In this document: in pieces, positions 31,493 to 57,587 of the stretch
How positions within the stretch are numbered: the stretch's first letter is position 1
Layout: each line of letters starts with the position of its first letter
IMG/VR virus record: IMGVR_UViG_3300032753_002463
Span: 32,933 to 96,932 of that record
Origin: a virus
Direction: 5' to 3' (one strand)
DNA: 64,000 bases
The notes under the pieces: generated by a model
Database searches by the model: none
What the model saw: only the letters and a program-made list of their open reading frames with translations
What the model was told of the DNA's origin: nothing
Position numbers and translations under genes: made by a program

Positions 31493-32104
31493 TTAAACTT
31501 TTAATTTTATTCCTTTTTCTTTAAAAAATTTCATCTGTGTTAGATCAGGCCAATCATTGACAGTCCATTTAACTGGGACTGTATCTATTGCATTTTTTAA
31601 TTTTTCTAATCCTATTTTTGCAGTTTCTGGTGTCATATAATAATGATATCCCATCATATCAATATCTTGATCTCTCCATAAAATATCAGGGACCCTACCA
31701 TCATATGACATCTTTTTCAGAGTCTCTGCTGCTTCTGGATTATTAGTAAGAATAATTCCTCCCCTACCTAAATTCAGATGTTTTTTAAACTGAAAACTAA
31801 CATTCATAAAAGTTCCTGGAATATAGCTATCTTTTTTCCACAAAACTGCTGCATCTATAACATCATCCGTTAAATAATAATAATCCTCCCAATTTTCATC
31901 CTTCCAAAAAAGATCGAGCCCTAATTTATATGCTAACATAGGAATAGATAAATAGGTTCTTTTAGGTACATAAATAGAGCTAGCGTTAGTATACCTTAAA
32001 CAAAGTTCTACTCCGTGGGTACAACAATCTACAGCAATGGCATATTTAGATCCAAAAAAATTAGCTATAGATTCTTCGAAATTTTTAATGCTGTCAAATC
32101 CCAT
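31493..32104 (-). CDS. Shortened DegT/DnrJ-type PLP protein
   Basis: The 203 residues cover only the PLP-binding half of a DegT/DnrJ/EryC1 aminotransferase, which is normally about 370 residues. Seen are IAVDCCTHGVELCL (cofactor phosphate loop), the Asp of VIDAAVLW at about 84, and SFQFKKHLNLGRGG at 103-116, in which Lys108 should be the Schiff-base Lys. The large part usually between and the C-terminal domain are absent, but the frame is clean from start to stop. It overlaps none of its neighbours and follows gmd closely, as with perosamine or colitose enzymes. It is either a mini-aminotransferase or an inactivated remnant. Confidence 0.7.
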   Translation of the reverse strand: MGFDSIKNFEESIANFFGSKYAIAVDCCTHGVELCLRYTNASSIYVPKRTYLSIPMLAYKLGLDLFWKDENWEDYYYLTDDVIDAAVLWKKDSYIPGTFMNVSFQFKKHLNLGRGGIILTNNPEAAETLKKMSYDGRVPDILWRDQDIDMMGYHYYMTPETAKIGLEKLKNAIDTVPVKWTVNDWPDLTQMKFFKEKGIKLKV

Positions 32105-32105
32105 T

Positions 32106-33846: not shown

Positions 33847-34363
33847 AATTCATTAATTTTTTTCCTGATGCTAATATTCTTTCTTTTTCCCTTGCCTTAA
33901 TTGGTTTAGCTGGGCTACCTCCATAAACCATCCAAGGCTCTGTATCTTTAGTAACTAAAGAATTTGCACCAATGATACATCCTTCTCCAAGGGTTACTCC
34001 AGGCAAAACACTACAATTAACTCCTAATGTAGCATACCGCTTAAATATAACAGGTTTATTAATAACAGTCCTATATTCTATAGGAACAACAGGAGAGATC
34101 AGACCTTGTATAAAATCATCGGACGCGCAAACTATCCTACTACCAGATCCAATATTTGTAAAATCCTCCATTACTAATAATGCAGGTGCTCCTCCTATAA
34201 TAGAGACACTTGGCGCAATGTGAATATAATTACCCAGCTGTGCTTGTGTTGAAATATAAGTCCACGCATCGATAGCTATATGACTTCCAAGCTCAATTAA
34301 TTCAGGTCTTGAGATAATTGCAAGCTCACTAATTCTTACGTCTGTTCCAATTTTTTTATACAT
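33839..34363 (-). CDS. Hexapeptide-repeat acyltransferase (left-handed beta-helix)
   Basis: The 174 residues form several hexapeptide turns (LGSHIAIDAWTYISTQAQLG, IGSGSRIV, LGVNCSVLPGVTLGEGCIIG) and the C-terminal GGSPAKPIKAREKER that is typical of WbbJ/NodL-type O-acetyltransferases. The catalytic-type His is not obvious in this set. It would acetylate or acylate a sugar in the glycan made by this block. It sits between the FabH-like and dioxygenase genes with short overlaps, suggesting the acyl group and its sugar are handled together. Confidence 0.88.
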   Translation of the reverse strand: MYKKIGTDVRISELAIISRPELIELGSHIAIDAWTYISTQAQLGNYIHIAPSVSIIGGAPALLVMEDFTNIGSGSRIVCASDDFIQGLISPVVPIEYRTVINKPVIFKRYATLGVNCSVLPGVTLGEGCIIGANSLVTKDTEPWMVYGGSPAKPIKAREKERILASGKKLMNYE

Positions 34364-34377
34364 AACTAAATAATTTA

Positions 34378-35319
34378 TTAATAATCAATAACAATTGATC
34401 CCCAAGTCCACCCAGAGCCAATAGCGGTTAGTAATATTTTATCTCCTCTATCTATCTCCCCATTTATAATTGCTTCATGTAATGCAATTGGTATAGAAGC
34501 ACCAGCTAAATTAGCATATCTGTCCATCACAGTTTTTATTTGTTCGAATGGCATTTCTAATTGCTCTGCAATTATTTTTAAGATATTGATGCTTGGTTGA
34601 TGAGGTATTATCTTCTTTATATCTTTTACTGAAAGATTAGTTTCAAAAAGGACTGCACGGATTGAATTTGGTAGGGTTGAAATAGCTTGTTCCCAAACTT
34701 CTTTCCCCTTCATGATAAAGGGTCCTTCTAATGGCATGGTAAACCCTGTCATTCCTGTTCCCCCACCATTAGATTCAATTTTACTATAAATCCAACCACC
34801 ATTACTTTCTCCTAAAATAACTGCTCCTGCACCATCACCAAAAAATACACAATGCTGATCATTCCAATTAGTATGAGATGAATATGATTCTGTTGCTATT
34901 ATTAGTATATTATTAAAAGACTTAGAATTTATTAAGGAACTAGCTATTGACATAGCATAAACAAATCCAGAACAGACTGCATTAATATCAAAAGAGGGAA
35001 TATTTCTTTCCAATTTCAATTTATTGTGTATAGTACATGCAGTCGAGGGTGAAATTTTTTCGGGACTGGAGGTTGCAACTATTATCATGTCTATATCTTC
35101 TTTATCCATTTTTGCATTTTCCAAAGCTAGTAATGCGGATCTATACCCCATTTCAGAAACTGTTTCCTCTATTGAAGAAATCCTTCTTTCCTTTATTCCT
35201 AATTTATTAAATATCCATTCATCAGTAGTATTTACTTTCTGCGCAATGTCCTCATTTGTTAGGATCTTTGATGGCAAATATGACGATGTTCCTTTTATAC
35301 TAATGTTGGTGTATTTCAT
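34378..35319 (-). CDS. fabH: 3-oxoacyl-ACP synthase III-like (FabH)
   Basis: The 313 residues match KAS III over the full length: TTDEWIFNKLGIKERRI at 31-47, Cys116 in NAVCSGFVYAM, the GDGAGAVILG nucleotide/CoA segment, IIPHQPSINI (His) and RYANLAGASIP (Asn), i.e. the Cys-His-Asn triad is intact. KAS III enzymes start fatty-acid chains by condensing an acyl-CoA with malonyl-ACP. In this setting it more likely makes an acyl group for the acyltransferase next door, as in sugar-acylation clusters. A phage-encoded FabH is unusual. No ACP gene is visible nearby. Confidence 0.93.
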   Translation of the reverse strand: MKYTNISIKGTSSYLPSKILTNEDIAQKVNTTDEWIFNKLGIKERRISSIEETVSEMGYRSALLALENAKMDKEDIDMIIVATSSPEKISPSTACTIHNKLKLERNIPSFDINAVCSGFVYAMSIASSLINSKSFNNILIIATESYSSHTNWNDQHCVFFGDGAGAVILGESNGGWIYSKIESNGGGTGMTGFTMPLEGPFIMKGKEVWEQAISTLPNSIRAVLFETNLSVKDIKKIIPHQPSINILKIIAEQLEMPFEQIKTVMDRYANLAGASIPIALHEAIINGEIDRGDKILLTAIGSGWTWGSIVIDY

Positions 35320-35322
35320 AAT

Positions 35323-36117
35323 CTATAGTTTTATCCAGGATTCTGGTATAATATCAGTGTCTATATAACCAGGATCATTAGTTCCAAACCATTTTCCAGG
35401 GGTAACTACTTTTTTAACCGGATTTTTATTTAACCAAGCTCCCCACCAAGAAAAACTCGAGCTTGATATAATATTATGATCGCACATAGACATTAAAAAA
35501 AGTTCAATATAATCCTTATCCGAGATAAATACGAAATTATCCCCTTTGAAGTTAGCCCTAGCATAATCAGGGTCATCGCTAAAAACCAAATAAGTTTTTG
35601 CCTGGATAATATCCATAGCAGATTTGTACCATTCTATCGTCTTAGTATGATGTTTACTACTTTGGTCTAAAGAATAGTCCCCGCGTCGAACATGAATTGC
35701 ACAAGTACCATCACCTAAAAATTGTTTATATTTTTCTATCTTCTCTAGTACAAATTCAGATGGCTCGAAAAGGTTTAATATATAATTTCTGTTAGTAAAA
35801 TATTTCTCTGTCTGGAAGTAGCCATGATAAATTGTTCCATCAACAAATTTAATAGGAACAAAATGAAATGGGCAAATAATCTTATTAGTAAAGATACCCT
35901 GTGTTTCCCAATGAAAATTTTTAAAAATCTTCAAATAGTCTTGTGTTGATACATCGGATGTTGGATATACACGGGCCCTATCATTTTGAACCTTAGCTAA
36001 ATGAGATTCCACATTAGGAAATACTGCCTTAGTATTATTTGCTAATGCAGTATTTTCTATTGCAGCAATAACAAACATCATATTGCCTAATCCTCCGAGT
36101 ATATTACCTCCTATCAT
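35323..36117 (-). CDS. Fucosyltransferase, GT11 family
   Basis: The 264 residues have the GT11 (alpha-1,2-fucosyltransferase) signature set: GGLGNMMFVIAA at 8-19, the donor-binding AIHVRRGDYS, LVFSDDPDYARANF and SSFSWWGAWLNKNPVKKVVT. The double Trp-Gly motif and HxRRGD are definitive for this family. With the GT10-like gene at 32106 it makes two fucosyltransferase-like enzymes in the block, implying a glycan with two fucose-type residues. It overlaps the cupin gene by four bases. Confidence 0.92.
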   Translation of the reverse strand: MIGGNILGGLGNMMFVIAAIENTALANNTKAVFPNVESHLAKVQNDRARVYPTSDVSTQDYLKIFKNFHWETQGIFTNKIICPFHFVPIKFVDGTIYHGYFQTEKYFTNRNYILNLFEPSEFVLEKIEKYKQFLGDGTCAIHVRRGDYSLDQSSKHHTKTIEWYKSAMDIIQAKTYLVFSDDPDYARANFKGDNFVFISDKDYIELFLMSMCDHNIISSSSFSWWGAWLNKNPVKKVVTPGKWFGTNDPGYIDTDIIPESWIKL

Positions 36118-36524
36118 AAAAAAACCTTATCTAACTTTTGGCCCTCATATGGTCCAGTTTTATATTCATAAACAACAGTATTATCTTCTAAGATTTCATA
36201 CGTATGTCCTCCATAGAGAGTAAAACTTGCATCCCCTGGATATAATATTGGTTCTGCTATAAGACTACCGTCGAGATCATAAAATTTACATTTCACGCTT
36301 CCCCTAATTACTACCCAAGATTCCTGTGCTATTTGTGCTTCATAAGACCTTTTTTTTGTTATATGCTTATGTGCAGGAAATGTTTTTCCATTTTCCATTA
36401 ATAAAGTAGCACATTGTATGAAATTATCAGGAGGCACTATTTCAGTTCTTCCTGTTATTTCTGATAATCTATTAATGATATGCAGTAGTTTATTTTCTTC
36501 TACTCTTGAATATATATTTTCCAT
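36114..36524 (-). CDS. Cupin-fold protein
   Basis: The 136 residues fold as a small cupin. The first metal-site-like segment is TFPAHKHITKKRSYEAQIAQ with two His and a Glu, then ESWVVIRGSVKCKFYD, and the second part is YPGDASFTLYGGHTYEILED with a His. It resembles WxcM/FdtA- or WbuC-type sugar cupins, which isomerise or bind nucleotide sugars, but the FdtA-specific motif was not identified. Its spot between the GT11 and SDR genes with tiny overlaps fits a sugar-modifying role. Confidence 0.75.
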   Translation of the reverse strand: MENIYSRVEENKLLHIINRLSEITGRTEIVPPDNFIQCATLLMENGKTFPAHKHITKKRSYEAQIAQESWVVIRGSVKCKFYDLDGSLIAEPILYPGDASFTLYGGHTYEILEDNTVVYEYKTGPYEGQKLDKVFL

Positions 36525-36525
36525 A

Positions 36526-37242
36526 TTAATTAGTATTATTGCTTGGATAAAAAGGTCTTATAATTATTTCAGATATATTGGCATTATTTGGCAATTCTAT
36601 TGCATTAATGATTTGAGTAGCTACTAATTCAGGGGTCATTCCTATATCAAATGTAGGCTTAAATTGTTTTAATAAAGATTCATTTTTTGTTTTGTCTATA
36701 AAAGGAGTATTAACTGTTCCTGGCGAGATTGTTGTTACTCTCACTTTTTTGCTAAGGTCCGCTCTAATTCCTTCGCTAATTGCTAATACTGCATGTTTTG
36801 TTGCACAATATACACCAGAATTAGGGAAAATATGATGAGATGCAACAGATCCTAAATTTATTATGTGACCATTTTCTTTAATTAAATTAGGTAAGAAAGT
36901 ATGTAGTACATTTAATAGCCCTTTAATATTAACGTCTATCATGGTATTCCAATCCTCTAATTTACCATCCTGTAAATTATCAAAAATCCCAATTCCTGCA
37001 TTATTTATAAGTACATCTATGCCAGTTATTTTATTTTTTACTTCCCTTTCCATTAATATAACATCCTCTATTTTAGTTATATCGGTTTTAAAATAAAAAG
37101 CATTAGGCCGATCTTTTACCAAATTAATCAAAGCCTCTTCGTTTCTCCCTGTTAAAAATACAGTGTGTCCATTAGCAGTAGCCAATTCAAAAGTTGCTTT
37201 ACCAATACCACTAGTAGCACCAGTAATTAAAATTCTTTTCAT
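36526..37242 (-). CDS. Classical short-chain dehydrogenase/reductase
   Basis: The 238 residues carry LITGATSGIGKATFELA at 5-20 (Gly motif TGxxxGIG), NNAGIG, the catalytic Ser in LGSVASHH and YCATKHAVLA (YxxxK), followed by a substrate-loop segment SPGTVNTPFIDKTKNE. This is the Ser-Tyr-Lys set of classical SDRs. It is not of the extended GDP-fucose-synthase type. A role in reducing a keto-sugar or fatty-acyl group is possible. It overlaps the GT25 gene by four bases. Confidence 0.92.
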   Translation of the reverse strand: MKRILITGATSGIGKATFELATANGHTVFLTGRNEEALINLVKDRPNAFYFKTDITKIEDVILMEREVKNKITGIDVLINNAGIGIFDNLQDGKLEDWNTMIDVNIKGLLNVLHTFLPNLIKENGHIINLGSVASHHIFPNSGVYCATKHAVLAISEGIRADLSKKVRVTTISPGTVNTPFIDKTKNESLLKQFKPTFDIGMTPELVATQIINAIELPNNANISEIIIRPFYPSNNTN

Positions 37243-37907
37243 CTGATATTATTTGTATGCTCGTTAAATTTTCTTTCCATCCAACTATAATCAGCAAAAG
37301 CATTATGAATATCACTATGATTACTAATTTGGACTGCTGTTATTGGATATGTGCAATAGCAAGGAAAATTTTCCTGTCCATATTCTGCTAACCAAACATC
37401 TATAATAGATATCAAGCCTTTATTAAAGTGTTCCAAATAATAATCATAAAAACTTTCGTGATATGCAATTGCATGGGTAGCAAAACCCCTTTTAAGTCTT
37501 AGGAGATTATCGTCTGCTCTTTCTAGCGGAATATGTAAATTAGTTCCTAGATAAAACAAGGACCAATCTTTCGTTTTTAATTGATTTATAGATTTTTCAA
37601 TAGAATCAACATTGATAAGATCAACATCATCCTCAAATATTAATACAGATTTCCATTTATTTTCTTTTGCCTTTTTAATAATATTAATATGAGAAAGTAA
37701 ACAACCATATAAGGGGATTTTAATTTTTTCCGTATCTGGCGTAAATGGTATATTACCATCATCAACTGGAATTACACCCGAAAATCTTTCAACTAAATCC
37801 AATATATTATGTTTGCCGAATAAAATATTACATCTTTCTAATCTATCTAATCTTTTATCTAGATTAATTAGGAATATTTTGTCAAAGTATTGGAATGCTT
37901 CTCTCAT
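37239..37907 (-). CDS. Glycosyltransferase family 25 (LPS-type)
   Basis: The 222 residues have GT25 markers: the N-terminal FLINLDKRLDRLERC at 12-26, the GCLLSHINIIKKAKENKW segment near 70-87 and SVLIFEDDVDLINVDS with the acidic EDDVDL cluster at about 92-97. Such enzymes add galactose or glucose to LPS or glycan cores. The start and stop overlap those of flanking genes by four bases, confirming the polycistronic layout. Confidence 0.9.
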   Translation of the reverse strand: MREAFQYFDKIFLINLDKRLDRLERCNILFGKHNILDLVERFSGVIPVDDGNIPFTPDTEKIKIPLYGCLLSHINIIKKAKENKWKSVLIFEDDVDLINVDSIEKSINQLKTKDWSLFYLGTNLHIPLERADDNLLRLKRGFATHAIAYHESFYDYYLEHFNKGLISIIDVWLAEYGQENFPCYCTYPITAVQISNHSDIHNAFADYSWMERKFNEHTNNIR

Positions 37908-38992
37908 TGGATATTTTTTATAAAAAAACCTGATATTAGTTCTATGAATTTTAATTTGTCACCTTGACAAAAATGTGTAAATCCATCATGAAGTCTTCGT
38001 TGTTCTCCTAAATCTGGATTAGTCGATCCATTATTTCGGGGATGATTCATATGAAACATATCAATTAAGGGTTCATTACACCCATCTACACCTATTGTAC
38101 ATAATAATTTATCATAAAAGAAAGCATCCTCACAAGAGTAGCTATGGAAAAATTCAGCATCAAATCCTCCAACATTAAAAAAATCCTTCTTACTAATGAA
38201 TATTGATCCACCAGGTGCACCAGCAGCACAATATGTAGAACCATCCTCGCCAATAATTAATTTGCCTATTGTAGTATCCTTATTAATAATAGAGGTAGTT
38301 CTTCTATCGTCCATAACAACTATTCTTCTACCTCCAAATGCTTGTATAGGTTTAGTATATGATGTCCTTTCTAAATTTTTAAATAGATTTTCAAAAAAAT
38401 CCTCTTTCATCAATAGGTCAAGATCATGAAATAAATAGAATTCAGCATTGTTTGCAAACAATGCCCCAACATTCATTGCTAAACATTTATTAAAATGATC
38501 CCTCTCATTTTTTTTAATCCATATATGATTAGCTTTTCCATAACAATAATTACGATGTGCACCAATAGACCCATGCTCAACGAAAGTAATGGAATATTTT
38601 TTATCTGGATAATATTCCATTGCTTTTTGAAAATGCGATATCAAGGGTGCAGTAAAATTTTCACGCCCAAGAACTGGTATAATAATAGAAAGGTCTACTG
38701 GTTCATTATTATGAAAATAAAATTCACATCCATCCTTTATAGAATTATAATCTATTCGGTTGCTCATGTACACATGGATCAAATCCGAGAGAGTCTTTTT
38801 ATGTGGATGCATTGTGATTAGATCTTTATTATTTTGGTCAGGAGGAATATTTTTTGGTGGCGGTGGTGGCGGTGGCAATGCAGCTTCCTTAATTTGGTCT
38901 ACCTGCTGTTGAAGTATTTGTTTAATCCTACTAGATGCATTAATAGATTTACTGACTATCATTCTTCTATTTTTGTTAATGTATCTACTCAT
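37904..38992 (-). CDS. Glycosyltransferase, GT2/GT7-C type, with poly-Pro linker
   Basis: This 362-residue protein begins with a basic/helical leader, followed by a poly-Pro tract (PPPPPPP at about 42-48) that probably tethers the enzyme. The GT-A domain starts at DLSIIIPVLGRENFTA and has the DXD-like HDLDLLMKEDFFEN near 190, then the GT7-C type element GGSIFISKKDFFNVGGFDAE with SCEDAFFY (ED motif). It is preceded by GGATATATAATT at 39011-39022. It opens the transcript for most of the glycan block. Confidence 0.82.
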   Translation of the reverse strand: MSRYINKNRRMIVSKSINASSRIKQILQQQVDQIKEAALPPPPPPPKNIPPDQNNKDLITMHPHKKTLSDLIHVYMSNRIDYNSIKDGCEFYFHNNEPVDLSIIIPVLGRENFTAPLISHFQKAMEYYPDKKYSITFVEHGSIGAHRNYCYGKANHIWIKKNERDHFNKCLAMNVGALFANNAEFYLFHDLDLLMKEDFFENLFKNLERTSYTKPIQAFGGRRIVVMDDRRTTSIINKDTTIGKLIIGEDGSTYCAAGAPGGSIFISKKDFFNVGGFDAEFFHSYSCEDAFFYDKLLCTIGVDGCNEPLIDMFHMNHPRNNGSTNPDLGEQRRLHDGFTHFCQGDKLKFIELISGFFIKNIQ

Positions 38993-39012
38993 AATTACTA
39001 CATATGTTTTAA

Positions 39013-39022
39013 TTATATATCC
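39013..39022 (-). promoter_or_regulatory. AT box before glycan genes (37904-38992)
   Basis: GGATATATAA on the minus strand, 21 bases before the ATG at 38992 and followed by TTAAAAC, very like the box at 45108. Likely drives the downstream glycan genes; inferred. Confidence 0.4.
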
Positions 39023-39042
39023 CTCGTTAATTTCCCTTTTTA

Positions 39043-39864
39043 CTAAAGATCTAATACATTTTGTGGCCTATTAGGATCCCCTAATCCTAAAGATAATGAT
39101 CTTTTTACTAATTCTTTTTTATCTGTATTTCTAGCTCTTTCAAATAACCTTTCATTAACCCCCATATTAATACCATCCTTATTAAAATGGCTTAAATGTA
39201 TTATAGGATAATTAATTTTAGGTAAATCTGTATCTTTATCTATTCCTAATATAGATTTAATAATTTCAACTGCAGCTTTATCTTCCCAGCCATACCTAAA
39301 AAAATCTTCAGGATATCCCCCAAATTCCTCCCAGTACCATTTTCTCTCAAAAACAAGAACTGCACCATATCCACACCCCCTTGTAAACGTTTCAAATCTA
39401 AAAACGGGATCTTTGGGTCCTCCGTTGCCATAATTATAAATAGCTGGAAAATTTCTCCCTGCCAGAAATATTTGTGTTATTGGTTCTTGATATATCCAAT
39501 GATATAGATTTGCCCCGCCTGCGAAGAGAAAATTTGTATTCGATATTTCAGTAAAGTAGTTTTCTTGAAATACCATATCTGCATCCATTAATACTATTTT
39601 TTCTCCAGATGCAATTTTAGCACCAACATTACGACACCAGCTAAGATTAAATCCACGATTATATGGGTCTTTAATACCAATCCATTGGTATCCCTCTGAT
39701 TTTATAGACTCCTTATAGAAAGATCCATCTAAAGATTGCTCAACTATAATAACCTCATAGTCCTTATAATTTTGATTTTCTATAGACTTTATACAATGGA
39801 TAAAATTTCTTTGCCTTAATGAATCATTTCCAGCAACTGGAATGATTACTGATATTTTGCTCAT
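39043..39864 (-). CDS. Glycosyltransferase family 2
   Basis: The 273 residues show a GT2 layout: MSKISVIIPVAGNDSLRQRN at the start, EVIIVEQSLDGSFYK, the conserved GFNLSWCRNVGAKIASGEKI at about 70-89, and VLMDADMVFQENYF with the DAD acidic motif. The C-terminal part (FGGYPEDFFRYGWEDKAAVE) matches the GGxDE...GWEDx acceptor element. It overlaps the next gene by four bases. Confidence 0.92.
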   Translation of the reverse strand: MSKISVIIPVAGNDSLRQRNFIHCIKSIENQNYKDYEVIIVEQSLDGSFYKESIKSEGYQWIGIKDPYNRGFNLSWCRNVGAKIASGEKIVLMDADMVFQENYFTEISNTNFLFAGGANLYHWIYQEPITQIFLAGRNFPAIYNYGNGGPKDPVFRFETFTRGCGYGAVLVFERKWYWEEFGGYPEDFFRYGWEDKAAVEIIKSILGIDKDTDLPKINYPIIHLSHFNKDGINMGVNERLFERARNTDKKELVKRSLSLGLGDPNRPQNVLDL

Positions 39865-40622
39865 ATTAGATTTAATTTTTTAAATAAGGTTTGGCATTTT
39901 TGAAAATTATCTTTCATTGGTAAAGGAAGGTGACAATCAAACATTTCTTCTGTTGTATAGTTATCATTTTCTGGCCATCTAACTTTATCTAATCTGTTTC
40001 GAGCTATTTTACCATCAATCCAACCCCTCCGAAGTCCAACATACCTACTGGTTTTGTAGTGCCATTTAAGAAATTGAGCATAAAAATATTGTTGGTCTGT
40101 TCCGTGCCCATAATTAGCTTGCTTCATCTTCAGCATAAAATATTCCCAAGATGTATTTTCATTAATATCTAAGATATCATTAAATGTACTTCCCTTTCCT
40201 GCTAAATAACACATAGGAAGCATAGGTCTTCTTCGATAAAATCCATGTTCCAATACATCACTAGTATAGCTAACAAAAAAATCGTCTGGTATTTCAGGAA
40301 GATGCTCCATATAATATTTTTTACTAATTGGTAGCATGTCCAAATCTGACATTATTATAGTATCATCTGGAAATTTCGTTCCTGCCCATAATCTTATTGA
40401 TTGTGCTTGATTGACAATATCCCATAAAGGATCCTCTGGGACCTGAATAACTTGTCCATATTGGGATAATTCCAAAACTCTAGAAGCTTCTCCTATAAAA
40501 AAAAGAACAGGTTCTACTCCTATTAAATCCCTCCATGCCTTGGAAACATAGGGCCAAAAATCTAAATATTTTGGATTATCATTTGCTGAAAGTATAGCTC
40601 TATTTAGTTTCATTTGGATCAT
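39861..40622 (-). CDS. GT-A type glycosyltransferase, unassigned family
   Basis: This 253-residue protein contains a DXD-like metal motif IIMSDLDMLPISKKY at about 88-102 within a typical GT-A arrangement: an N-terminal nucleotide fold region around LFFIGEASRVLELS, and a C-terminal acceptor region with NYGHGTDQQYFYAQFLKWHY. The family number is not clear. Its 3' end overlaps the GT2 gene and its 5' end overlaps the GIY-YIG gene by 23 bases. Confidence 0.75.
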   Translation of the reverse strand: MIQMKLNRAILSANDNPKYLDFWPYVSKAWRDLIGVEPVLFFIGEASRVLELSQYGQVIQVPEDPLWDIVNQAQSIRLWAGTKFPDDTIIMSDLDMLPISKKYYMEHLPEIPDDFFVSYTSDVLEHGFYRRRPMLPMCYLAGKGSTFNDILDINENTSWEYFMLKMKQANYGHGTDQQYFYAQFLKWHYKTSRYVGLRRGWIDGKIARNRLDKVRWPENDNYTTEEMFDCHLPLPMKDNFQKCQTLFKKLNLI

Positions 40623-41400
40623 TAAATTTTATTAAAAATCCATTATAAATTCTATTTTTATAGGATCTTAATGTGGATCTACTTATATCTAAAAAATTAG
40701 CTGCTTCTTTCACAGAGGAAAAATCCATAATTATATTGTCCTTTATTAATTGAACATTTATAGAATTAAGAGCTTTTTTCCCATAATTTGGATGATTCAC
40801 TCCTCTTAATTGTTTTCCGTATGCCGGATGATCTTTTCCGCGCAGTCCATATAATGGACTATTCATTCCCGAATTTTTTAATCTAATTTTTTCTTTTGTA
40901 TCTTCATTTCTTTGTTTTCCTTTCCATTCGGGTATTTTTGTTTTATATAATTCTTTCATGGAAAGGGATTGTTTTTCTTTAGAGTGTTGGCTTCTTTCAA
41001 TTCCTTTTGTTGGATTTATATACCCGTTTTGATATTTCTTCTTCCATAATAAAGATAAATTATCTTTTTGACTCTTTGAAAATTTATAACCTAACGGACT
41101 ATTAGCAGTTTTATAAATATTATATCCTATATTTCTAATATAAGGTTTTTCTAAATCTAAATAATATTGTTCCCTTTCGATTAGGATTTTTTTATTTCTA
41201 TCAGTATTTTCTATCACTAAAAAAATAAAATCTTCTCTCCCGTATTTATTCCAAGCATTTTGTAAATAGCTATTGCTGTGTATATTTTTATCTAATTCAT
41301 TAATATGTATATTCCATCTTTTATCTATATTAACAGCAGATCCAATATAAATTTTATTCGTGGTTTTATTAGCTATTTTATAAATTCCAGATTTAATCAT
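40600..41400 (-). CDS. Free-standing GIY-YIG endonuclease with NUMOD motifs
   Basis: The 266 residues start with a GIY-YIG domain (GIY at 5-7, YIG at 18-20, RWNIH, and the catalytic-type Glu of LIEREQYYLDLEKP), followed by NUMOD3-like repeats (HSKEKQSLSMKELYKT, RNEDTKEKIRLKNSG, and the HP-rich YGKQLRGVNHPNYGKK) and a NUMOD1-type helix-turn-helix at the C-terminus (FSSVKEAANFLDISRSTLRS). It has the same layout as the enzyme at 13931 with an added HTH. It lies inside the glycan block and overlaps the downstream glycosyltransferase by 23 bases. AGATATATA precedes the start by five bases. Confidence 0.93.
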   Translation of the reverse strand: MIKSGIYKIANKTTNKIYIGSAVNIDKRWNIHINELDKNIHSNSYLQNAWNKYGREDFIFLVIENTDRNKKILIEREQYYLDLEKPYIRNIGYNIYKTANSPLGYKFSKSQKDNLSLLWKKKYQNGYINPTKGIERSQHSKEKQSLSMKELYKTKIPEWKGKQRNEDTKEKIRLKNSGMNSPLYGLRGKDHPAYGKQLRGVNHPNYGKKALNSINVQLIKDNIIMDFSSVKEAANFLDISRSTLRSYKNRIYNGFLIKFNDPNETK

Positions 41401-42181: not shown

Positions 42182-42910
42182 ATGAAAGTACTTAAGAATT
42201 ACTGGTTTTTACAAGACCCGATTGATGTTGAACATAAGTTCTATGTGCTGATGGATTTTTTACAGTCGGTGGAGAAGGACCTTAATGACAAAAAATACAA
42301 TGAGCAGATCCAAAAGATTAGAAGGATCCACGACGACTTAAAAACCTTCAAGGATAAGAAAAATTTATCAGATCGAACCTTAGTCACAATGACACAAACT
42401 GATTTGGAGCAACTTAAAACTTTCCAAGAATTGGTTATTGACAAAGAGGATGAATTGAAAGTACTTATTGATAATTCGATAGGTATATTAGATGGATTTT
42501 TAAGTAAAATAAACCCCCTATTACAGGAGATAAATGATTCTATAAAGGTTCATTCTTACGACGAAGCCAAAACATTCAAGGATCAAGGATTTTTGGTACT
42601 GCGTATACCAAATAAAAGGAAATTTAAGATATATTCTTGGATGTTCTCTTTTGTAAAAGTCAAACAGAAAGATCAGATTGGTATATTAATAACAGAATTA
42701 TTAGATCCATTGCCAAAATATAGTATTTCGGATAAAAAAATAATGAAATTTTTCCAATCTGAAATTAAAATATACAATCCTTCTTTAGATTCTTTTATAT
42801 TTGCGGATTTGGATAAATCTAAAAAGGAGACCGAAGTTGGTTTTGATCTAATGAAAGAGAGGGGTATACAATTTATAGTGGAGTCCTATCAGAAATTCCT
42901 TTCCTCATAA
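42182..42910 (+). CDS. Coiled-coil protein, unknown
   Basis: Residues 20-120 of this 242-residue protein are charged and helical with heptad-like spacing (EKDLNDKKYNEQIQKIRRIH, KTFQELVIDKEDELKVLIDN). A second half with alpha/beta character follows (FLVLRIPNKRKFKIYSWMFS, QIGILITELLDPL). No known domain is seen. It heads a plus-strand unit after a divergent gap containing an AT box. It converges with the next gene and their 3' ends overlap by 38 bases. Confidence 0.6.
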   Translation: MKVLKNYWFLQDPIDVEHKFYVLMDFLQSVEKDLNDKKYNEQIQKIRRIHDDLKTFKDKKNLSDRTLVTMTQTDLEQLKTFQELVIDKEDELKVLIDNSIGILDGFLSKINPLLQEINDSIKVHSYDEAKTFKDQGFLVLRIPNKRKFKIYSWMFSFVKVKQKDQIGILITELLDPLPKYSISDKKIMKFFQSEIKIYNPSLDSFIFADLDKSKKETEVGFDLMKERGIQFIVESYQKFLSS

Positions 42911-43457
42911 AAATATTTTTTGCCTGTTCTAGGGTCTTCAAAAAATCCTCTTTCTCAATCCCGTATTTTTCAGGGTCAAATTCTTCAATTGATTGAACAT
43001 ATTCAGGTTCTATTGCAGAACCTGTTTGTGGTACAATTTTCAAATTATTTTTTGCTGGACTAAAATAAATATCATATTTTCTTTTACCAGCTTTGATATT
43101 TTCAAAACAAAGAACATATCCATCTGGATATATTGATAATTGAAAATCTGCTTTTGAGTCCAAAAAATCTTCTATTGCTTTCATTAATAGATTAAGTTCC
43201 TTAGAACGAAGATTCATGATAGAATCAATTGATCCAGCTCCTGTTAAGGATTTTATTATAATTTTAATATCATCCTTATCACTAACACTCATCTTTTTGA
43301 ACAAAATTTCAAGGTCCGAGATAAAGTCGGATTTATTATAACCAATACGAGGATCATATACACAAGCATATTTGAAGGGTAGTATTTCATTAGTTTCTTG
43401 TGACCCAGCAGAAGAGGATTCGGTTAATTCAGTAAAGGTCTTTAGATGCTTCATCAA
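42873..43457 (-). CDS. Putative packaged head protein with capsid-targeting-like N-terminus
   Basis: The 194-residue protein starts MMKHLKTFTELTESSSAGSQ. This resembles the T4 capsid-targeting sequence (MKTYQEFI-type) followed by LTE (11-13), a fit to the gp21 cleavage rule (L/I)-x-E with a small residue after it. The rest is a compact alpha/beta protein with DDIKIIIKSLTGAGSIDSIM and DFQLSIYPDGYVLCFENIKA. A role as an internal head protein delivered into the host is inferred from the N-terminus only. It is preceded by the AT box at 43461-43468. Confidence 0.55.
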   Translation of the reverse strand: MMKHLKTFTELTESSSAGSQETNEILPFKYACVYDPRIGYNKSDFISDLEILFKKMSVSDKDDIKIIIKSLTGAGSIDSIMNLRSKELNLLMKAIEDFLDSKADFQLSIYPDGYVLCFENIKAGKRKYDIYFSPAKNNLKIVPQTGSAIEPEYVQSIEEFDPEKYGIEKEDFLKTLEQAKNIFMRKGISDRTPL

Positions 43458-43518: not shown

Positions 43519-44244
43519 ATGATAACTAGGTATAGTGAATTTAGTAAACCAAAAAAAACCGTGTCATTGATGGAGAAAGAAGAGTATTTCCAACATATAG
43601 ATGGAATACAGGCTCATATTGATGTAATGGTATTAGAAGGAAAATCGAAGGAAGAAATAAATGAGGGCTTAGGTGAAATCTTTTCTTTTCTTGGTGGTGG
43701 TTTTAAGCAAACTTTATATCAATATGCAGCACAGTGGATGCTAAAAAAATTGGGATTACCAGCTGATGGCTGGATAATGGAATTAGCTATACAAATAGTT
43801 ACAAAAATTAAATTTACTGAAATAGGCAATTATTTTGGCGACGGGTCCTGTAAATATTGGGCTCAAGCAATTCAAGAGGGTTTAGTATATTTTATGACTC
43901 AAAAAGCAGGTGATTTAATATTAGGTAGTTTAAAGATAGCACCTGGTAATGCGGATCAAAGAGGAGGTATAGCAAATACGTTGATTAAAACCATAACAAA
44001 TGGAGCAGGTCAAGCATTAAATAATACTGAATTTATAACAAATCTTGAACAAACAATAGAGGGTAAAATTTGCGGTAAAGGTGCTCCTGGATTTTCTGAT
44101 ATTTTTAAAGGTAAAACAGCAGATCCAGGAACCCAGGAGGAATTAAAGAATCAATTACATCAAGCTTCTAAAGAAGATCCAAATATAATGGGACAGGCCA
44201 AAGGAATAGGATTATTAAGTTTTCTTGGGTTTGGAGGATCATAA
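43519..44244 (+). CDS. Putative head-associated protein, unknown
   Basis: The 241-residue protein starts MITRYSEFSKPKKTVSLMEK, a capsid-targeting-like leader with an (L/I)-x-E site LME (17-19). The rest has helical and Gly-rich parts (LGEIFSFLGGGFKQTLYQYA, then GLPADGWIMELAIQIVTK) and a C-terminus rich in Gly, Lys and Gln ending in IGLLSFLGFGGS. It is the first of a plus-strand run of four (43519-46605). Packaged-protein status is inferred from the N-terminus. Confidence 0.5.
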   Translation: MITRYSEFSKPKKTVSLMEKEEYFQHIDGIQAHIDVMVLEGKSKEEINEGLGEIFSFLGGGFKQTLYQYAAQWMLKKLGLPADGWIMELAIQIVTKIKFTEIGNYFGDGSCKYWAQAIQEGLVYFMTQKAGDLILGSLKIAPGNADQRGGIANTLIKTITNGAGQALNNTEFITNLEQTIEGKICGKGAPGFSDIFKGKTADPGTQEELKNQLHQASKEDPNIMGQAKGIGLLSFLGFGGS

Positions 44245-44550: not shown

Positions 44551-45018
44551 ATGGCTAAAATATTCTCATTCGACGAATTCTGCGAGGAAGTTCTACATAT
44601 GGACGGAGCAGGAGAAGAAGGCGGTGAAAAAACCGATGACTACTACGGTGGCGGTGACGATACTGATACCGAAGATACAGCAGATACCGAAGATACTGAT
44701 ACTGAAGATACAGCAGATACCGAAGATACTGATACTGAAGATACAGCAGATACCGAAGATACTGATACTGAAGATACAGCAGATACAGAGGATAAGGGAT
44801 CTAAGAAAAAGAAAAGTAAAAAAGACGATAAAGGCGGCGGCGATTTTGATTGGACTAAAGAAGAAACTGAAGAAGAGGAAGAAACTGAAGAAATTGAAGG
44901 TGATGAAGATTTCTATAGAGATGGGACAACAGCAGGTGACGAAGAAGAAGATATGATGGATGAACCTGAAGATGAAACAACCCCTGGAATAGAAAGTTTC
45001 GACGACTATTTCGCATAA
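44551..45018 (+). CDS. Highly acidic repeat protein
   Basis: The 155-residue protein begins with MAKIFSFDEFCEEVLHMDGA, resembling the capsid-targeting leaders. Then come four tandem copies of an 11-residue unit D-T-D-T-E-D-T-A-D-T-E (residues 37-80), a short basic patch (GSKKKKSKKDDKGG), and an Asp/Glu-rich C-terminus. It is almost devoid of hydrophobic residues after residue 20, so it is probably unfolded. T4 gp67, a prohead core protein, is also small and very acidic. Alternatively it may be a carrier or substrate for the Glu-ligase-like enzyme 114 bases downstream; both ideas are inferences. Confidence 0.7.
   Translation: MAKIFSFDEFCEEVLHMDGAGEEGGEKTDDYYGGGDDTDTEDTADTEDTDTEDTADTEDTDTEDTADTEDTDTEDTADTEDKGSKKKKSKKDDKGGGDFDWTKEETEEEEETEEIEGDEDFYRDGTTAGDEEEDMMDEPEDETTPGIESFDDYFA
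44659..44790 (+). repeat. Four tandem 33-bp repeats coding for an acidic unit
   Basis: Four head-to-tail copies of a 33-base unit start at 44659, 44692, 44725 and 44758. The middle copies are identical; the first and last differ by a few bases. Each encodes DTDTEDTADTE in the same frame. Confidence 0.95.
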
Positions 45019-45046: not shown

Positions 45047-45070
45047 ACCCACACAATTGTGTGGGTTTTA
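45047..45070 (+). terminator. Terminator after the acidic repeat gene
   Basis: ACCCACACAATTGTGTGGGT at 45047-45066 is a perfect 20-base palindrome that folds as an 8-bp stem with an AATT loop, followed by TTTT. It separates the acidic gene from the ligase-fusion gene. Confidence 0.85.
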
Positions 45071-45106: not shown

Positions 45107-45120
45107 GAGATATATAATTA
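45107..45120 (+). promoter_or_regulatory. AGATATATA box before the ligase-fusion gene
   Basis: GAGATATATAATTA, ending about 13 bases before the ATG at 45133 and right after the terminator, so the ligase has its own promoter candidate. Confidence 0.45.
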
Positions 45121-45132
45121 TAATTAGTTCTA

Positions 45133-46605
45133 ATGGAAAAATCAATTAAAGATTTCGTATTTAAAGGAAAGCCCAAGGTTAAAAAGGAAAAACCAAGCTC
45201 ATTGATAGTCCTTACTACTAGATTAGGCAAAAGTGGTTCTATTGCTCCTACTGTAAAAAAACTCGTGGAGAAATGCAAAAAAAGGGGAATAAGATGTGTA
45301 GTTATTGATACACCCTATGGAGTAATAGAAAAAACGGAAAAAGGAACATATTTAATAGGTAATAAGGGAGAAGAAAAAACAGAGGTTGATGTATCTAATA
45401 CTATGATACTCCCTAGGAGATCCTCTATTGAAAATACTGCGGCAGTTAAATTTTTTCAGAAATTAGAAACTATAGGATTTACTGCAATCAATTCATTAAA
45501 ATCAGTTTTAATGTGTGAGGATAAATTGGAAACCTGTGAAAAATTATCAGAAAGAGGCATACCAGTACCAAAAACATCATTAATATCTAACATAAAAAGT
45601 GTAGATAGCGCAGTTGAAGAAATAGGTGGAAGATTTCCAATTATCGTTAAACTACTTAATGGTACAAAAGGCATAGGTGTTTTTCAAATAGATTCTCATC
45701 CATCCCTTATATCTTCGCTTCAAACAATTTGGAAACTTTCCCCTAATACAGAATTACTTTTACAGGAGAAGATTGAAGCTGAATACGATTTGCGTATTCA
45801 CGTTTTAGGCAACCGTGACGGCAGCGACGAAGGATACAATTATGAAGTTATTGGGGCAATGAAAAGGATTAAAATTGAGGGGGATTTTAGGACCAATTTC
45901 TCTCTGGGTGGAGAAACTGAAAAAGTGGAATTAACACCAGAAGTAGAGAAGATAGCTATTAAATGTGCAAAGGCAACAGGCTGTGGTTGGTGTGGAGTAG
46001 ATATCATAGTAGAGTCGGAAACTAAGAAACCCTATGTATTGGAAGTTAATGCTTCCCCTGGAACAGACGGTATAGAAAAAACCACGGATCTTCCAATAAC
46101 AGATATAGTCTTGGACTTTTTATCAAATAAAAAGAACTGGAGCCATCCAACAAAAATTATAGGATTTAGAGAAATTTTTACCGTAAAGGGTGTTGGAGAT
46201 TTTGTAGGAAAATCTGATACTGGTAATGGTGCTATATCTTGTTCCTTACATGCAGATTCATTTGAACAAATAGGCAAAGAAATTATATGGAGTATTGGGG
46301 ATAAGGAATATAAGAATAAAATAGTTGAATACTCTCACCCGGAAATTGGGGCAGAAACAGAAAAGAGGCCAGTTATTTTACTTGATGTAGAATTCGAGGG
46401 AACTACATATACTGATGTTAAATTTTCCGTAGTTGACAGAAAAACAAAGAGTACACCCCTATTAATTAATAGGTCCTTCATGGATAGAGCAGGATTAGTG
46501 ATCGATCCAAGTAGAACCTTTATAGTTACAGATAAACCTGAAGAATATGACCCAGCATCAGCTAAGGAAGGTTCAAGAGGTGGTATAATACTTTCTACCG
46601 AGTAA
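45133..46605 (+). CDS. RimK-like ATP-grasp ligase fused to RimB-like DTG domain
   Basis: Residues about 20-345 are an ATP-grasp ligase: FPIIVKLLNGTKGIGVFQID at 169-188 (ATP-binding Lys and Gly-loop), LLQEKIEAEYDLRIHVLG, and KPYVLEVNASPGTDGIEKTT at about 298-317 (Mg-binding Glu-x-Asn). This matches RimK-type enzymes that add Glu to protein C-termini. Residues about 350-490 are a retropepsin-like domain of the COG4067/RimB type: GKSDTGNGAISCSLHADSF with the DTG motif, RPVILLDVEFEGTTYTDVKF and FMDRAGLVIDPSRTFIV. Normally RimK and RimB are separate proteins. Its C-terminus overlaps the convergent asparagine-synthase-like gene by 11 bases. It follows an acidic repeat gene. Confidence 0.88.
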   Translation: MEKSIKDFVFKGKPKVKKEKPSSLIVLTTRLGKSGSIAPTVKKLVEKCKKRGIRCVVIDTPYGVIEKTEKGTYLIGNKGEEKTEVDVSNTMILPRRSSIENTAAVKFFQKLETIGFTAINSLKSVLMCEDKLETCEKLSERGIPVPKTSLISNIKSVDSAVEEIGGRFPIIVKLLNGTKGIGVFQIDSHPSLISSLQTIWKLSPNTELLLQEKIEAEYDLRIHVLGNRDGSDEGYNYEVIGAMKRIKIEGDFRTNFSLGGETEKVELTPEVEKIAIKCAKATGCGWCGVDIIVESETKKPYVLEVNASPGTDGIEKTTDLPITDIVLDFLSNKKNWSHPTKIIGFREIFTVKGVGDFVGKSDTGNGAISCSLHADSFEQIGKEIIWSIGDKEYKNKIVEYSHPEIGAETEKRPVILLDVEFEGTTYTDVKFSVVDRKTKSTPLLINRSFMDRAGLVIDPSRTFIVTDKPEEYDPASAKEGSRGGIILSTE

Positions 46606-53671: not shown

Positions 53672-55441
53672 TTAAACAATACCAGCTGCTGGCATAGTAA
53701 CGTAGAATGTAAAGTACATAGTCTGAGGATGGTGACCAGCTTCAACTAATGCGTACCTAGATTTTACCGCGATTTTTGGTGACATTGTACCTTCAGAGAT
53801 TGTCTGAATTGATTCTGCCATCATATAAGGCATAAACTTCATACCTGGTTCGTCATCGCCGCCTTTTCTTCCTACTAATACCCTAGTGTCTGAGTATTTC
53901 ATATTCTGATCAACATATACTGTCATACCAGCGATAGCACCTACAGGGTAAAGTGTACCATTGTTTTGAGTAAGTGTGTTAGAGAACGGTGCAAATGTAA
54001 ACTGACTGATGTCCTGTAGTGCAGAAGCAATCTGTGAGTTACAAACTACAAAGTTAGCTGGTCCTCTCCTACCTCTGTTAGCAACTACGTTAGCAGCAGC
54101 TAATAGCCTAGAGAATAATCTCCTCTGAACGGTAGATTGGTTTTCGTAACCACCTGTTGCGATTTGTCCAGGGGTTGAAAGGGTAATAAGACCTTCAGCT
54201 TTACCAACAAAGCTAGCAGTAGAACCGCTACCTGCACCAATACCAAGGTTGATGTTCATATTCTGTCCTTCTACAGTGTAGAATTCGTAGTGATTAGACC
54301 AACCAAGAGCAAATGCCCTAGAAAGGATGTGCTTATTAATAGCCTGAGATACTTCGTTAACAAGAGAGTTTTCGATCATAGAAACTACGTCGATACCGAA
54401 CTGCTTGTTAAGATCTTGTATCTGTTCAGTGGTAACACCTGCAGCTATCTGGAATGTTCCAGCTTCAACGAATTTAGTGAAGGTGTTAAGCGCCATCTGT
54501 TTGAAGTATGTGCTTTCTCCAACTCCCCTAGCCATTGGATCGTATACCTGAGTTCCGTCAACATAAGGTCCTACCCAGTTATTAGTATTACTAGAACCAG
54601 CTCCTGTGAAACCTTGTATGTGATCTTCAAGTGCTTTAACTAATACAGCTGAACCAGCAGTTGAATCAACAGGAGTAGCAGAAGTAACAGTTAATGTAGT
54701 ACCAGAGAAGGTAGCAGAATAAACGTCTGCAGTACCAGTAGATGGAACACATGCATTAATAGATTGGTTTGCAGTAATACCCTGTACTCTAAAGATAGGG
54801 AAACCATCAATACGAGAATTACCAACAAACTGTGCATAAATTACAGGGGTACCAGTAGAAGTAAGGTTATAAGTAGTAGCAGAAAGGTTAACACCAATTG
54901 CATATACATTACCTACAACTAAGTTAGTAGCAGGAGATGCAGTACTCGTAGGAACCTTAACCAAATCTGGAGAGTTATCAGTGTTGTTAGTAGCAACATC
55001 GGTAGATACACCACCTAATTTACCACCAGCATATACATAATCTAAATAGCTAAGTACGCCTGTAGGTCCTTGCATAGGTATAACTGGTACGATATCAAAA
55101 CCGACAGTCTTTGCAGCTACCTGAATAGCAAGGGGAAGTAAGGATGGGAATTTATCACCAGATCCAAGACCAGAACCTGAATAAGAACCGCCAGCATAGA
55201 ATGCAGCAGGACCACCAACACCACCAGCAGCAGTACCACCATAAAGGTTACCAGCAGGAGCAATATTACCCATACCGTTCATTACACCTAGGGAGTTATA
55301 CGCACCGGCAGACTCATTTAATGAGTGGTAGTGGCAATATGTAGACAACCAGTCGATTTTAGACCTATCTGTTATACCAGTTTTACTCTCGATAATGGGT
55401 GCCCATGTATCGTAGATTTCGTGATGATTAATAAGATTCAT
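53672..55441 (-). CDS. Major capsid protein, T4 gp23-like
   Basis: The 589-residue protein starts MNLINHHEIYDTWAPIIESK, the leader of gp23-like proteins, then WLSTYCHYHSLNESAGAYNS. LNE at 41-43 followed by Ser is a perfect gp21-type (L/I)-x-E site, so maturation should remove residues 1-43. A low-complexity Gly/Thr region (GNLYGGTAAGGVGGPAAFYA) follows, with an HK97-fold core that includes EISQAINKHIL-like (LVNEVSQAINKHIL) and GRRGPANFVVCNSQIASALQ, and ends EAGHHPQTMYFTFYVTMPAA. The codon choice is more GC-rich than that of neighbours, as expected for the most abundant protein. It has its own terminator. Confidence 0.93.
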   Translation of the reverse strand: MNLINHHEIYDTWAPIIESKTGITDRSKIDWLSTYCHYHSLNESAGAYNSLGVMNGMGNIAPAGNLYGGTAAGGVGGPAAFYAGGSYSGSGLGSGDKFPSLLPLAIQVAAKTVGFDIVPVIPMQGPTGVLSYLDYVYAGGKLGGVSTDVATNNTDNSPDLVKVPTSTASPATNLVVGNVYAIGVNLSATTYNLTSTGTPVIYAQFVGNSRIDGFPIFRVQGITANQSINACVPSTGTADVYSATFSGTTLTVTSATPVDSTAGSAVLVKALEDHIQGFTGAGSSNTNNWVGPYVDGTQVYDPMARGVGESTYFKQMALNTFTKFVEAGTFQIAAGVTTEQIQDLNKQFGIDVVSMIENSLVNEVSQAINKHILSRAFALGWSNHYEFYTVEGQNMNINLGIGAGSGSTASFVGKAEGLITLSTPGQIATGGYENQSTVQRRLFSRLLAAANVVANRGRRGPANFVVCNSQIASALQDISQFTFAPFSNTLTQNNGTLYPVGAIAGMTVYVDQNMKYSDTRVLVGRKGGDDEPGMKFMPYMMAESIQTISEGTMSPKIAVKSRYALVEAGHHPQTMYFTFYVTMPAAGIV

Positions 55442-55466: not shown

Positions 55467-57587
55467 TTACTTTCTAAACCTAAGATCAAGTTGTGCAGCT
55501 ATATTGCTGATATAATCAGAATTATAACCTTTACCATTTTGACCAGAGATTAATTTTTTACTTTCGTCTAACTGCTGAACATTCTTAGCTGATACTTTAA
55601 TTCCTCTTGATTTCCAGAAGTGATTTATTTGGTATGGTGTATCAAGCCTATAAGACTTACTTTGTGCAATAATTGAAGCTCTTTGACCTTCATTCATTGT
55701 TTCCCATGCTCCCTTAAATTCTTCTGGCATCATATCAAGGAATTTTTCACCTGATCTTGCCTGCTCTGTTAGAGCGTTGCCCATGATATCAATTACTTCT
55801 TTTTCGGATGAATAATTGTTCTCATTAAGCGCTTTTGTCACCTTTTGTTTTTCGGCTTCGTTTAGAGATAAAAATCCAGTCTTAACGTCGTTATTCACTA
55901 ACTTTAAGAAACTATATTTTTTCTCGTTTATTATCTCATCTGTCTTTTGTTTATTAACAGATTCTATTAGAGTATCTATCTTAGAAGAAATTCCTTCGTA
56001 GTTTCCAGAAAATCCTGAGATTCTCTTATTTTCGGAAATAGCTTGAGTTATCTCTTTTGTTAAATTTTTGTTTCCTTTTATATTGTTCATTGATTCTGCT
56101 AATGCCTCAGCATAACCAATATTATTTCCTAATTTTTCTGATAAGTAATCGGAAAATTGAATGCTCTTATGTAGATTCTCTGCAAGATAGTCAGAAAATG
56201 CTAAGCCTTGATTAACTTTTTCACCAATACTTTCAGAATATCTAATACCTCTATCTAAATTTAATGCTAAATACTCGCCATAAGAAATACTCCTATCCAA
56301 ATTCTCTGCAAGATAGTTTTGATAAGAAATAACTTTGTTCATACTTTCGGTAAGGTAGTCACCATAAGTTATATTTTTATCCAAATTCTCTGCAAGATAT
56401 TCACTATATCTAATATTCTTATCTACATTTTCCGCAATATATTCAGTATAAGCTACTGCTTGCCTGATTTTTTCTTCCAATGTAACAAATTTAGCTACAC
56501 TATTATCTACGTTTTCCGCAATATACTCTGCGTAAGAAATGTTGTTATCAAGGTGTTCAGCCAAGTACTTAGCATATGCTATTACTCTTTGTAGACTTTC
56601 ATCCATTTGCCTATTTTCAGTAACTGTACCTTCTAGGTGTTCTGAAAGATATTCGCTATATTTAATAGATGCTTCTAAATTTTCTGCAAGATAGTCACAA
56701 TATTTTTCCAACTTAGAAATTCTTTCTTCTGAAGTCATACTAGATTTTTCGGTCTTATCTGCCTTAGCTTTTTCGTTAATCTTAACTGGTACCTTAGTAG
56801 TCTTTAAAGAAGAAAGGGAAGCTTTAAGAGCTGACATTTCCTTTTGAAGTAATTTGGTATATTCATTAAGTTCTTCCGCAGTAACAAAATTTTCCATGCT
56901 CGATTGCTTATTTGTAATATTTTCTTTCTTGGATAGCAATTTTGCTATTTTCTCCTGATCCTTGATTCTATATATCCTAATATTAGAATCATTCTTCAGC
57001 CCAAAATTCTCATTTATTACAGAAAGTCCATTAATAATGGAATCTTTCTTATTTTTTTCATTTAAACCCGATCCAAAACTTTCATAAACCCTACCCAATT
57101 GAGCAGTTTCAAATCCTGGATCTGCTACTAGATCATAGGTAAAAATTCTTTTAATCTCTACCCTCTTATTAGCGCCTACTACACCTGCAGCTCTAGAAGA
57201 AATGGAAATTGGTATTCCTGCTTCTACTAGAGACCTAGCAATTTGGCCTGCTGGAGTATCTAAAAGTTTAACCTTAATTCTAACAGTCCTATCCTCCTTA
57301 TTATAAACAAGTTTTTCAATAACATGAGATAGATTCTTTAAAGAAACATCAAATTCCTTAGGATGATCTAATTCACCACAAAGCCTTCTTTGGTTAATCT
57401 TTTCGTTTAAATATTCTAGGTGAGGAAGATATTCACTTTCCTCATAGATCCTTTGATTCGAATTTTCCTTACCAAAAACTGCAGCAACACCTTCTAAGTA
57501 GATGTCATTGGAGTTTTGGCTTCTCTCTGTTTTTAAATTAGAAAGGGATCTTTCCAATATTAAAACGTAATCCTGGTTTTGGGCCAT
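55467..57587 (-). CDS. Prohead protease fused to scaffold with self-cleavable repeats
   Basis: Residues 1-165 of this 706-residue protein are a gp21-like prohead protease: NQRIY at 45-49, CGELDHPKE with His75, VKLLDTPAGQI, and ISISSRAAG with the active Ser at 130/131. LNE at 175-177 could be the self-release site. Residues 295-502 contain 13 copies of a 14-residue unit of the type Y-x-E-Y-L-A-E-N-L-D-x-x-I; 12 of 13 include (L/I)-x-E. The helical C-terminus ends PYQINHFWKSRGIKVSAKNV. T4 has separate gp21 and gp22. An internal Met at 231 (56897) would make a free scaffold, as in lambda C/Nu3; unproven. AGATATATA precedes the start. Confidence 0.9.
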   Translation of the reverse strand: MAQNQDYVLILERSLSNLKTERSQNSNDIYLEGVAAVFGKENSNQRIYEESEYLPHLEYLNEKINQRRLCGELDHPKEFDVSLKNLSHVIEKLVYNKEDRTVRIKVKLLDTPAGQIARSLVEAGIPISISSRAAGVVGANKRVEIKRIFTYDLVADPGFETAQLGRVYESFGSGLNEKNKKDSIINGLSVINENFGLKNDSNIRIYRIKDQEKIAKLLSKKENITNKQSSMENFVTAEELNEYTKLLQKEMSALKASLSSLKTTKVPVKINEKAKADKTEKSSMTSEERISKLEKYCDYLAENLEASIKYSEYLSEHLEGTVTENRQMDESLQRVIAYAKYLAEHLDNNISYAEYIAENVDNSVAKFVTLEEKIRQAVAYTEYIAENVDKNIRYSEYLAENLDKNITYGDYLTESMNKVISYQNYLAENLDRSISYGEYLALNLDRGIRYSESIGEKVNQGLAFSDYLAENLHKSIQFSDYLSEKLGNNIGYAEALAESMNNIKGNKNLTKEITQAISENKRISGFSGNYEGISSKIDTLIESVNKQKTDEIINEKKYSFLKLVNNDVKTGFLSLNEAEKQKVTKALNENNYSSEKEVIDIMGNALTEQARSGEKFLDMMPEEFKGAWETMNEGQRASIIAQSKSYRLDTPYQINHFWKSRGIKVSAKNVQQLDESKKLISGQNGKGYNSDYISNIAAQLDLRFRK
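56082..56705 (-). repeat. Thirteen 14-residue scaffold repeats (coding)
   Basis: Encodes residues 295-502 of the protease-scaffold fusion. Units share the pattern Y-(A/S)-E-Y-(L/I)-A-E-N-(L/V)-(D/N). Two longer spacers interrupt the array (about 318-336 and 364-378). Units 1-8 and 10-13 keep (L/I)-x-E; unit 9 has LAL instead. Confidence 0.9.

Follow-up and report, generated by a model that had tools for sequence, protein, structure and literature searches.

Among known systems, the nearest counterparts of the gene considered here in domain content are the bacterial RimBK hybrids, reported in 2025 for Desulfotalea psychrophila DP2392 and its relatives, in which RimB is N-terminal and protease activity has been demonstrated (PMC11957791). 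In six bacterial RimBK hybrid genes that we read, the DTG motif lies near residues 28-99 and the RimK motif EVNSSP near residues 422-492, placing RimB first. Such hybrids are reported to be common in Bacteroidota. The gene examined here is viral and carries the two halves in the opposite order. It lies within a stretch of 64,000 nucleotides, referred to below as the window (positions 32,933 to 96,932 of IMG/VR record IMGVR_UViG_3300032753_002463). A preliminary description, made from the sequence, had proposed a RimK-like ligase fused to a RimB-type protease, two proteins that it held to be usually separate in bacteria. The fusion stands, but the one-chain bacterial hybrids were already known.

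On balance we lean towards a bifunctional polyglutamylation enzyme that is packaged in the virion and injected, and that sets the length of glutamate tails on a host protein. What computation established, as described below, are the domains and their folds, the conservation of both active sites, the distribution of the family, the N-terminal motif and the genomic context. From these we infer enzymatic activity, packaging, injection and target; the experimental support for packaging and injection comes only from a distant homologue in Yersinia phage YerA41.

A RimK-type ligase joined to a RimB/RloA-type retropepsin

The open reading frame (ORF) in the window encodes a RimK-type glutamate ligase joined to a RimB/RloA-type retropepsin. 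Residues 129-325 match RimK (PF08443) in Pfam with an E-value of 2.8e-38, and the full-chain AlphaFold2 model (pLDDT 85.1, with residues 1-18 disordered) gave RimK structures for all of its top 22 Foldseek matches (7qys, 5.5e-24). For the C-terminal half, PF05618 (RimB/Zn_protease) scored 23.0 bits with the full protein, over residues 406-466, and 25.3 bits with the domain by itself, in both cases a little under the curated cutoff of 27. The corresponding proteins of Pelagibacter phage Mosig (28.0 bits) and YerA41 (29.0) score above it. The same family was matched by 42 of 45 C-termini of relatives, the best at 2.3e-10. A profile of the C-terminal-domain family, searched against the PDB, retrieved RimB/RloA-type structures only (9g59 at 4.4e-11, 9g58 at 7.2e-10 and 2pma at 4e-9), and the model of this domain alone (pLDDT 90.4) matched retropepsins in Foldseek (2pma at 2.8e-8, 9g59 at 1.4e-7, also 9g58, followed by HIV protease). 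Profile searches and structure predictions had been named beforehand as a possible refutation of the proposed architecture; they returned a RimK fold for the first part and a retropepsin fold for the second.

Conservation was assessed in an alignment of 45 divergent relatives, down to 33% identity. The ATP/Mg and substrate-site residues of RimK are invariant (K131, K173, D219, R221, R245, D251-FR-N255, D290, E304 and N306), and DTGN is intact in 44 of the 45, the exception being L081, where DTG is lost. In RloA, K46, R114 and R137 are conserved polyglutamate contacts common to RimB (PMC12239564). In a profile alignment to 9g58 these correspond to K360, R412 and R436 of the window protein, each at least 90% conserved, with the matching counted by hand at a constant numbering offset of 20. 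Conservation of these contacts supports the prediction that the C-terminal domain is specific for polyglutamate trimming. Taken with the catalytic residues of both domains, they also support the earlier suggestion that one chain could both add and trim glutamates.

An IMG/VR scan found at least 529 stretches encoding relatives, duplicates included, and nearly all of the 80 stretches fetched hold full fusions with both domains. Isolated phages with a homologue include Mosig, YerA41 and GN1. In a tree of the RimK domain, in which long branches were flagged by the program, the phage fusion family forms one clade (100/100), with the RimB-less protein of Melnitz inside and the cyanophage RimKs outside. 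RimB was lost in Melnitz, as DTG was in L081, and both proteins retain the N-terminal peptide discussed below. The C-terminal-RimB arrangement was found in none of 399 bacterial genomes of one phylum (other phyla, including Bacteroidota, were not searched), and the listed matches cover the RimK part only, bar one phage-like contig, which has phage-type neighbours. A contig of the Alphaproteobacteria metagenome-assembled genome TMED93 (L090) carries a frame-broken fusion homologue with regA and gp43 as neighbours and resembles phage DNA that was assigned to a bacterial bin. In L026, a second RimK-like gene without RimB (5452-6426) lies immediately downstream of the fusion gene. The open-licence literature that was searched contained no report of a phage RimK-RimB fusion or of a virion polyglutamylase, nor of a separate, widely distributed viral clade that combines the reversed domain order with a targeting-like peptide. 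The individual parts are already known, and the fusion itself is not unique to the window.

Features of the fusion gene and its surroundings, in window coordinates
Feature	Position	Strand	Basis
RimK-RimB fusion gene, 490 aa	45133..46605	+	ORF, Pfam, AlphaFold2, Foldseek
N-terminal extension MEKSIKDFVFKGKPKVKKEK, residues 1-20; putative divergent T4-like capsid-targeting sequence	45133..45192	+	AlphaFold2 disorder, family consensus, T4 comparison
RimK-type pre-ATP-grasp and ATP-grasp domains, residues 23-331	45199..46125	+	Pfam, Foldseek, 45-sequence alignment
RimB/RloA-type retropepsin domain, residues 336-468	46138..46536	+	Profile searches, AlphaFold2, Foldseek
DTGN catalytic motif, residues 362-365	46216..46227	+	DTG in 44/45 relatives
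GATATATA motif, 17 nt before fusion start codon; candidate late promoter	45109..45116	+	Motif scan
Terminator-like hairpin between acidic gene and fusion gene	45047..45066	+	Hairpin search
Acidic repeat protein, 43% D/E; N-terminus IFSFDEFCEE, C-terminus FDDYFA	44551..45018	+	Upstream in all window-clade loci
Head-region gene; its relatives have a full targeting-like N-terminus (MKIQRYSQFISE/S in L002)	43519..44244	+	N-terminus comparison, loci
Gene with targeting-like N-terminus MKHLKTFTELTE/S	42873..43457	-	N-terminus scan
Major capsid protein, T4 gp23 type	53672..55441	-	PF07068, 2.7e-39
Prohead core protease, T4 gp21 type; GATATATA motif upstream	55467..57587	-	Family search, motif scan

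The N-terminal extension and its genomic setting

Phage fusions carry an N-terminal extension of 15-25 residues, whereas cellular and cyanophage RimKs start directly at the first strand. Its consensus in the family alignment, MxxxxFxxFIxEA, resembles the N-terminus of the T4 internal proteins IPII and IPIII, MKTYQEFIAE/A (T4 record AF158101), with the prohead-protease site, marked here by a slash, included. In the T4 peptide, targeting to the head core depends on residues 4 and 7, and clipping by gp21 on residues 8 and 10; an Asp at position 10 blocks clipping and not packaging (PMC9026906). An Asp stands at the cleavage-Glu position in L032 (MNKFNDFIFDG).

Of 29 non-redundant clusters of the family, 20 have a tight form of the motif in their first 17 residues. 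Shuffled controls gave a mean of 1.56 of 29 (never more than 7 over 5000 shuffles); the motif matched 2.1% of internal 17-mers and none of four cyanophage or seven bacterial RimKs. A loose regular expression covering the first 26 residues was rejected, as it also matched the N-termini of 4/4 cyanophage and 5/7 bacterial RimKs. Counted genome-wide in Mosig, targeting-like peptides begin 10 of 166 ORFs, a background of 6%, and no other internal protein stood out clearly in this count. In the window protein (MEKSIKDFVFKGK) the hydrophobic-x-x-F-V core of the motif is retained (I5xxF8-V9; IKDFV, residues 5-9).

Similar N-termini are found on other proteins of family genomes (MKHIKLYEQFLNE in L020, MKFTEYIDE in L032 and MKNLPSFEQFVNE in L024). 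Many unrelated proteins in L020, L024, L031, L032, L035 and others begin with short sequences such as MKHIKLYEQFLNE/G or MKFTEYIDE/S, and the proteins that share them may constitute an extensive group of internal proteins targeted to the capsid.

The window phage is T4-like, with a gp23-type capsid protein and a gp21-type prohead protease, and its nearest isolates by capsid protein are mostly phages of Bacteroidota. Within the window clade the fusion gene is located in a T4-like head cluster, after two conserved genes and the gene for an acidic protein; in a second clade it is downstream of the gp23 gene. The GATATATA motif precedes the fusion gene, the prohead protease gene and further genes of the head region, and 18 of its 35 contig sites fall in the interval 5-70 nt ahead of an ORF start, compared with 1.0 expected for random positions. 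Written as [GA]ATATATA, the motif is distributed contig-wide (for example at window positions 43493, 44522, 45109, 53585 and 57617) with this strong enrichment ahead of ORFs, and is a candidate late promoter for phages of this group. Neither the capsid-targeting-like peptide nor the head-gene context figured in the preliminary description, and both point to packaging and injection.

That description had also offered three local targets or partners. The first, the acidic protein encoded upstream, does contain four repeats (a 33-bp unit in 4.1 copies, 97%), and its counterparts in window-clade loci are 43-78% D/E with conserved ends, a variable middle and Glu runs of 4-11. These proteins end in FDDYFA or FDNFFN, with no terminal Glu, and are therefore unlike a RimK C-terminal acceptor; no comparable acidic neighbour was found at the loci of the other fusion clades. 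With these points, and a terminator and promoter-like motif between the two genes, the protein was down-weighted as an obvious ligase substrate. Its role is perhaps comparable to that of gp67, an acidic T4 core protein. The S1-like protein (a 415-aa ORF at 17154-18401 on the minus strand, with two S1 RNA-binding domains over the Pfam cutoff) and the AsnB-like gene are likewise present, but were set aside as partners: nothing beyond a shared genome links them to the fusion, and AsnB is on the opposite strand. Elsewhere in the window, between the tail and head genes (28386-41400, minus strand), is a sugar/lipid biosynthesis cluster comprising a DAHP-synthase-family enzyme, SIS isomerase, GDP-mannose dehydratase, DegT aminotransferase, PhyH dioxygenase, hexapeptide transferase, KAS III (FabH-like) and short-chain dehydrogenase.

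Packaging and injection weighed against other roles

In the mechanism that we propose, the RimK-type half would extend a protein C-terminus with alpha-linked glutamates and the RimB-type retropepsin half, through which the enzyme would form a homodimer, would trim them, so that the opposed activities would set the length of the Glu tail on a host target. Ribosomal protein S6 is the best and first candidate for that target, because it is the known RimK/RimB substrate. The N-terminal peptide would load the enzyme into the prohead core, where the prohead protease would usually clip it, and the enzyme would then be packaged alongside the DNA and injected at infection, in a manner analogous to T4 Alt. 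Packaging and injection are proposed because the peptide, similar to that of T4 internal proteins, is family-wide. The window protein, having no cleavage Glu, is predicted to be packaged unclipped.

Particle data are available for YerA41, in which liquid chromatography-tandem mass spectrometry of purified particles detected g112, a ribosomal protein modification protein (PMC7354516). Its gene lies beside those for ribonucleotide reductase, which identifies g112 as the fusion homologue YerA41_066, with the number matching done by hand, and homologues are annotated as structural protein in both YerA41 and GN1. Because the particle list is broad, the detection is suggestive and not conclusive.

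Several observations weigh against packaging and injection. The YerA41 list of 63 proteins includes polymerases and ribonucleotide reductase (PMC7354516), and cytosolic carry-over is possible; the N-terminus of the YerA41 homologue does not match the motif, and g112 stands in the middle-expressed part of the table in that paper (PMC7354516). The window protein lacks both the Glu at the clipping position and an [LIV]xE site in its first ~20 residues, and fails the motif expression; L010 likewise has no cleavage Glu. The core motif by itself (hydrophobic-x-x-F plus a hydrophobic residue) is weak evidence for a single protein such as this one, because 23 of 87 contig ORFs carry it, and the argument that the window protein itself is packaged thus draws on its relatives and its genomic context. 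In the pelagiphage-type clade, the fusion gene lies between regA and gp43, in a replication cluster and not among head genes.

This last placement and the middle-expressed listing of g112 are what would be expected of a cytosolic host-takeover enzyme, made after infection and modifying S6 or making free poly-alpha-glutamate, with an N-terminal peptide that is incidental or serves another purpose. Cyanophage RimKs, which have no targeting peptide, must also work inside the cell if they are active. We consider this alternative rather unlikely, although it is the most credible of the three weighed here. An extension with a prohead-protease-like site is found across the fusion clade and is absent from cellular and cyanophage RimKs, Melnitz has kept the peptide despite losing RimB, and the window clade combines a head-gene context with an upstream motif common to head genes. 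Less probable again is an enzyme of head assembly, one that would polyglutamylate or trim phage core proteins within the prohead during maturation and would not be an injected effector. In favour of this role, the acidic neighbour is directly upstream in all window-clade loci and carries Glu runs, RimB can cleave internal poly-Glu stretches (PMC11957791), and T4 cores also hold the acidic gp67. However, other clades have no such neighbour, the C-termini of the acidic proteins are not Glu, and encoded acidic stretches were judged unlikely physiological substrates of the related RloA (PMC12239564). A degenerate or moonlighting fusion, with one or both domains inactive and the chain retained as a structural protein, would agree with the structural-protein annotations in YerA41 and GN1 and with the lost DTG of L081; with catalytic residues of both domains invariant or nearly so across the alignment, we give it very little credence.

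The broader form of the packaging and injection proposal is that widespread T4-like viruses pack and inject a self-contained writer and eraser of polyglutamylation, which would retune host ribosomes or another target before phage gene expression; we hold the chances of this to be about even. If it is true, polyglutamylation would join the short list of virion-delivered protein modifications, for which ADP-ribosylation of RNA polymerase by T4 Alt is the known model, in an abundant marine virus group. The fusion would also offer a compact ligase-protease of natural origin and a way to approach the role of RimK/S6 tail length, and the many proteins of the family genomes that begin with this type of peptide would become candidate injected effectors.

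Comparison with known systems

With the S6 alpha-L-glutamate ligase RimK (7qyr, 7qys, 5zk6) the phage fusion shares the fold, the ATP/Mg ligands and the motifs MKRxxxxxDFRxNxxxGG and EVN(S/A)SPGxxGIE, at about 28-30% identity; it adds the N-terminal extension and the C-terminal protease. The C-terminal domain shares with the RimB/RloA retropepsins (9g58, 9g59, 2pma) the retropepsin fold, the DTG motif and the basic polyglutamate-contact residues, but is fused after RimK, has a shorter loop before the conserved Arg and carries no signal peptide. Cyanophage RimK (PHROG 2599; S-RIM8, S-RIM12, S-CAM8) is likewise phage-encoded, yet it has neither RimB nor the N-terminal peptide and falls in a separate clade.

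On the side of delivery, T4 IPII and IPIII share the N-terminal MxxxxFxxFIxE/A peptide with the fusion family, and the enzyme T4 Alt is injected and modifies a host protein, as proposed for the phage fusion. Relative to these T4 proteins, the cargo here would be a ligase-protease, and particle association within the fusion family has been seen only for YerA41. The nearest counterpart in domain content is bacterial RimBK, which likewise combines a RimK ligase and a RimB retropepsin in one chain. Compared with it, the phage fusion has RimB at the C-terminal end, a RimK domain in a separate clade (100/100) and a targeting-like N-terminus.
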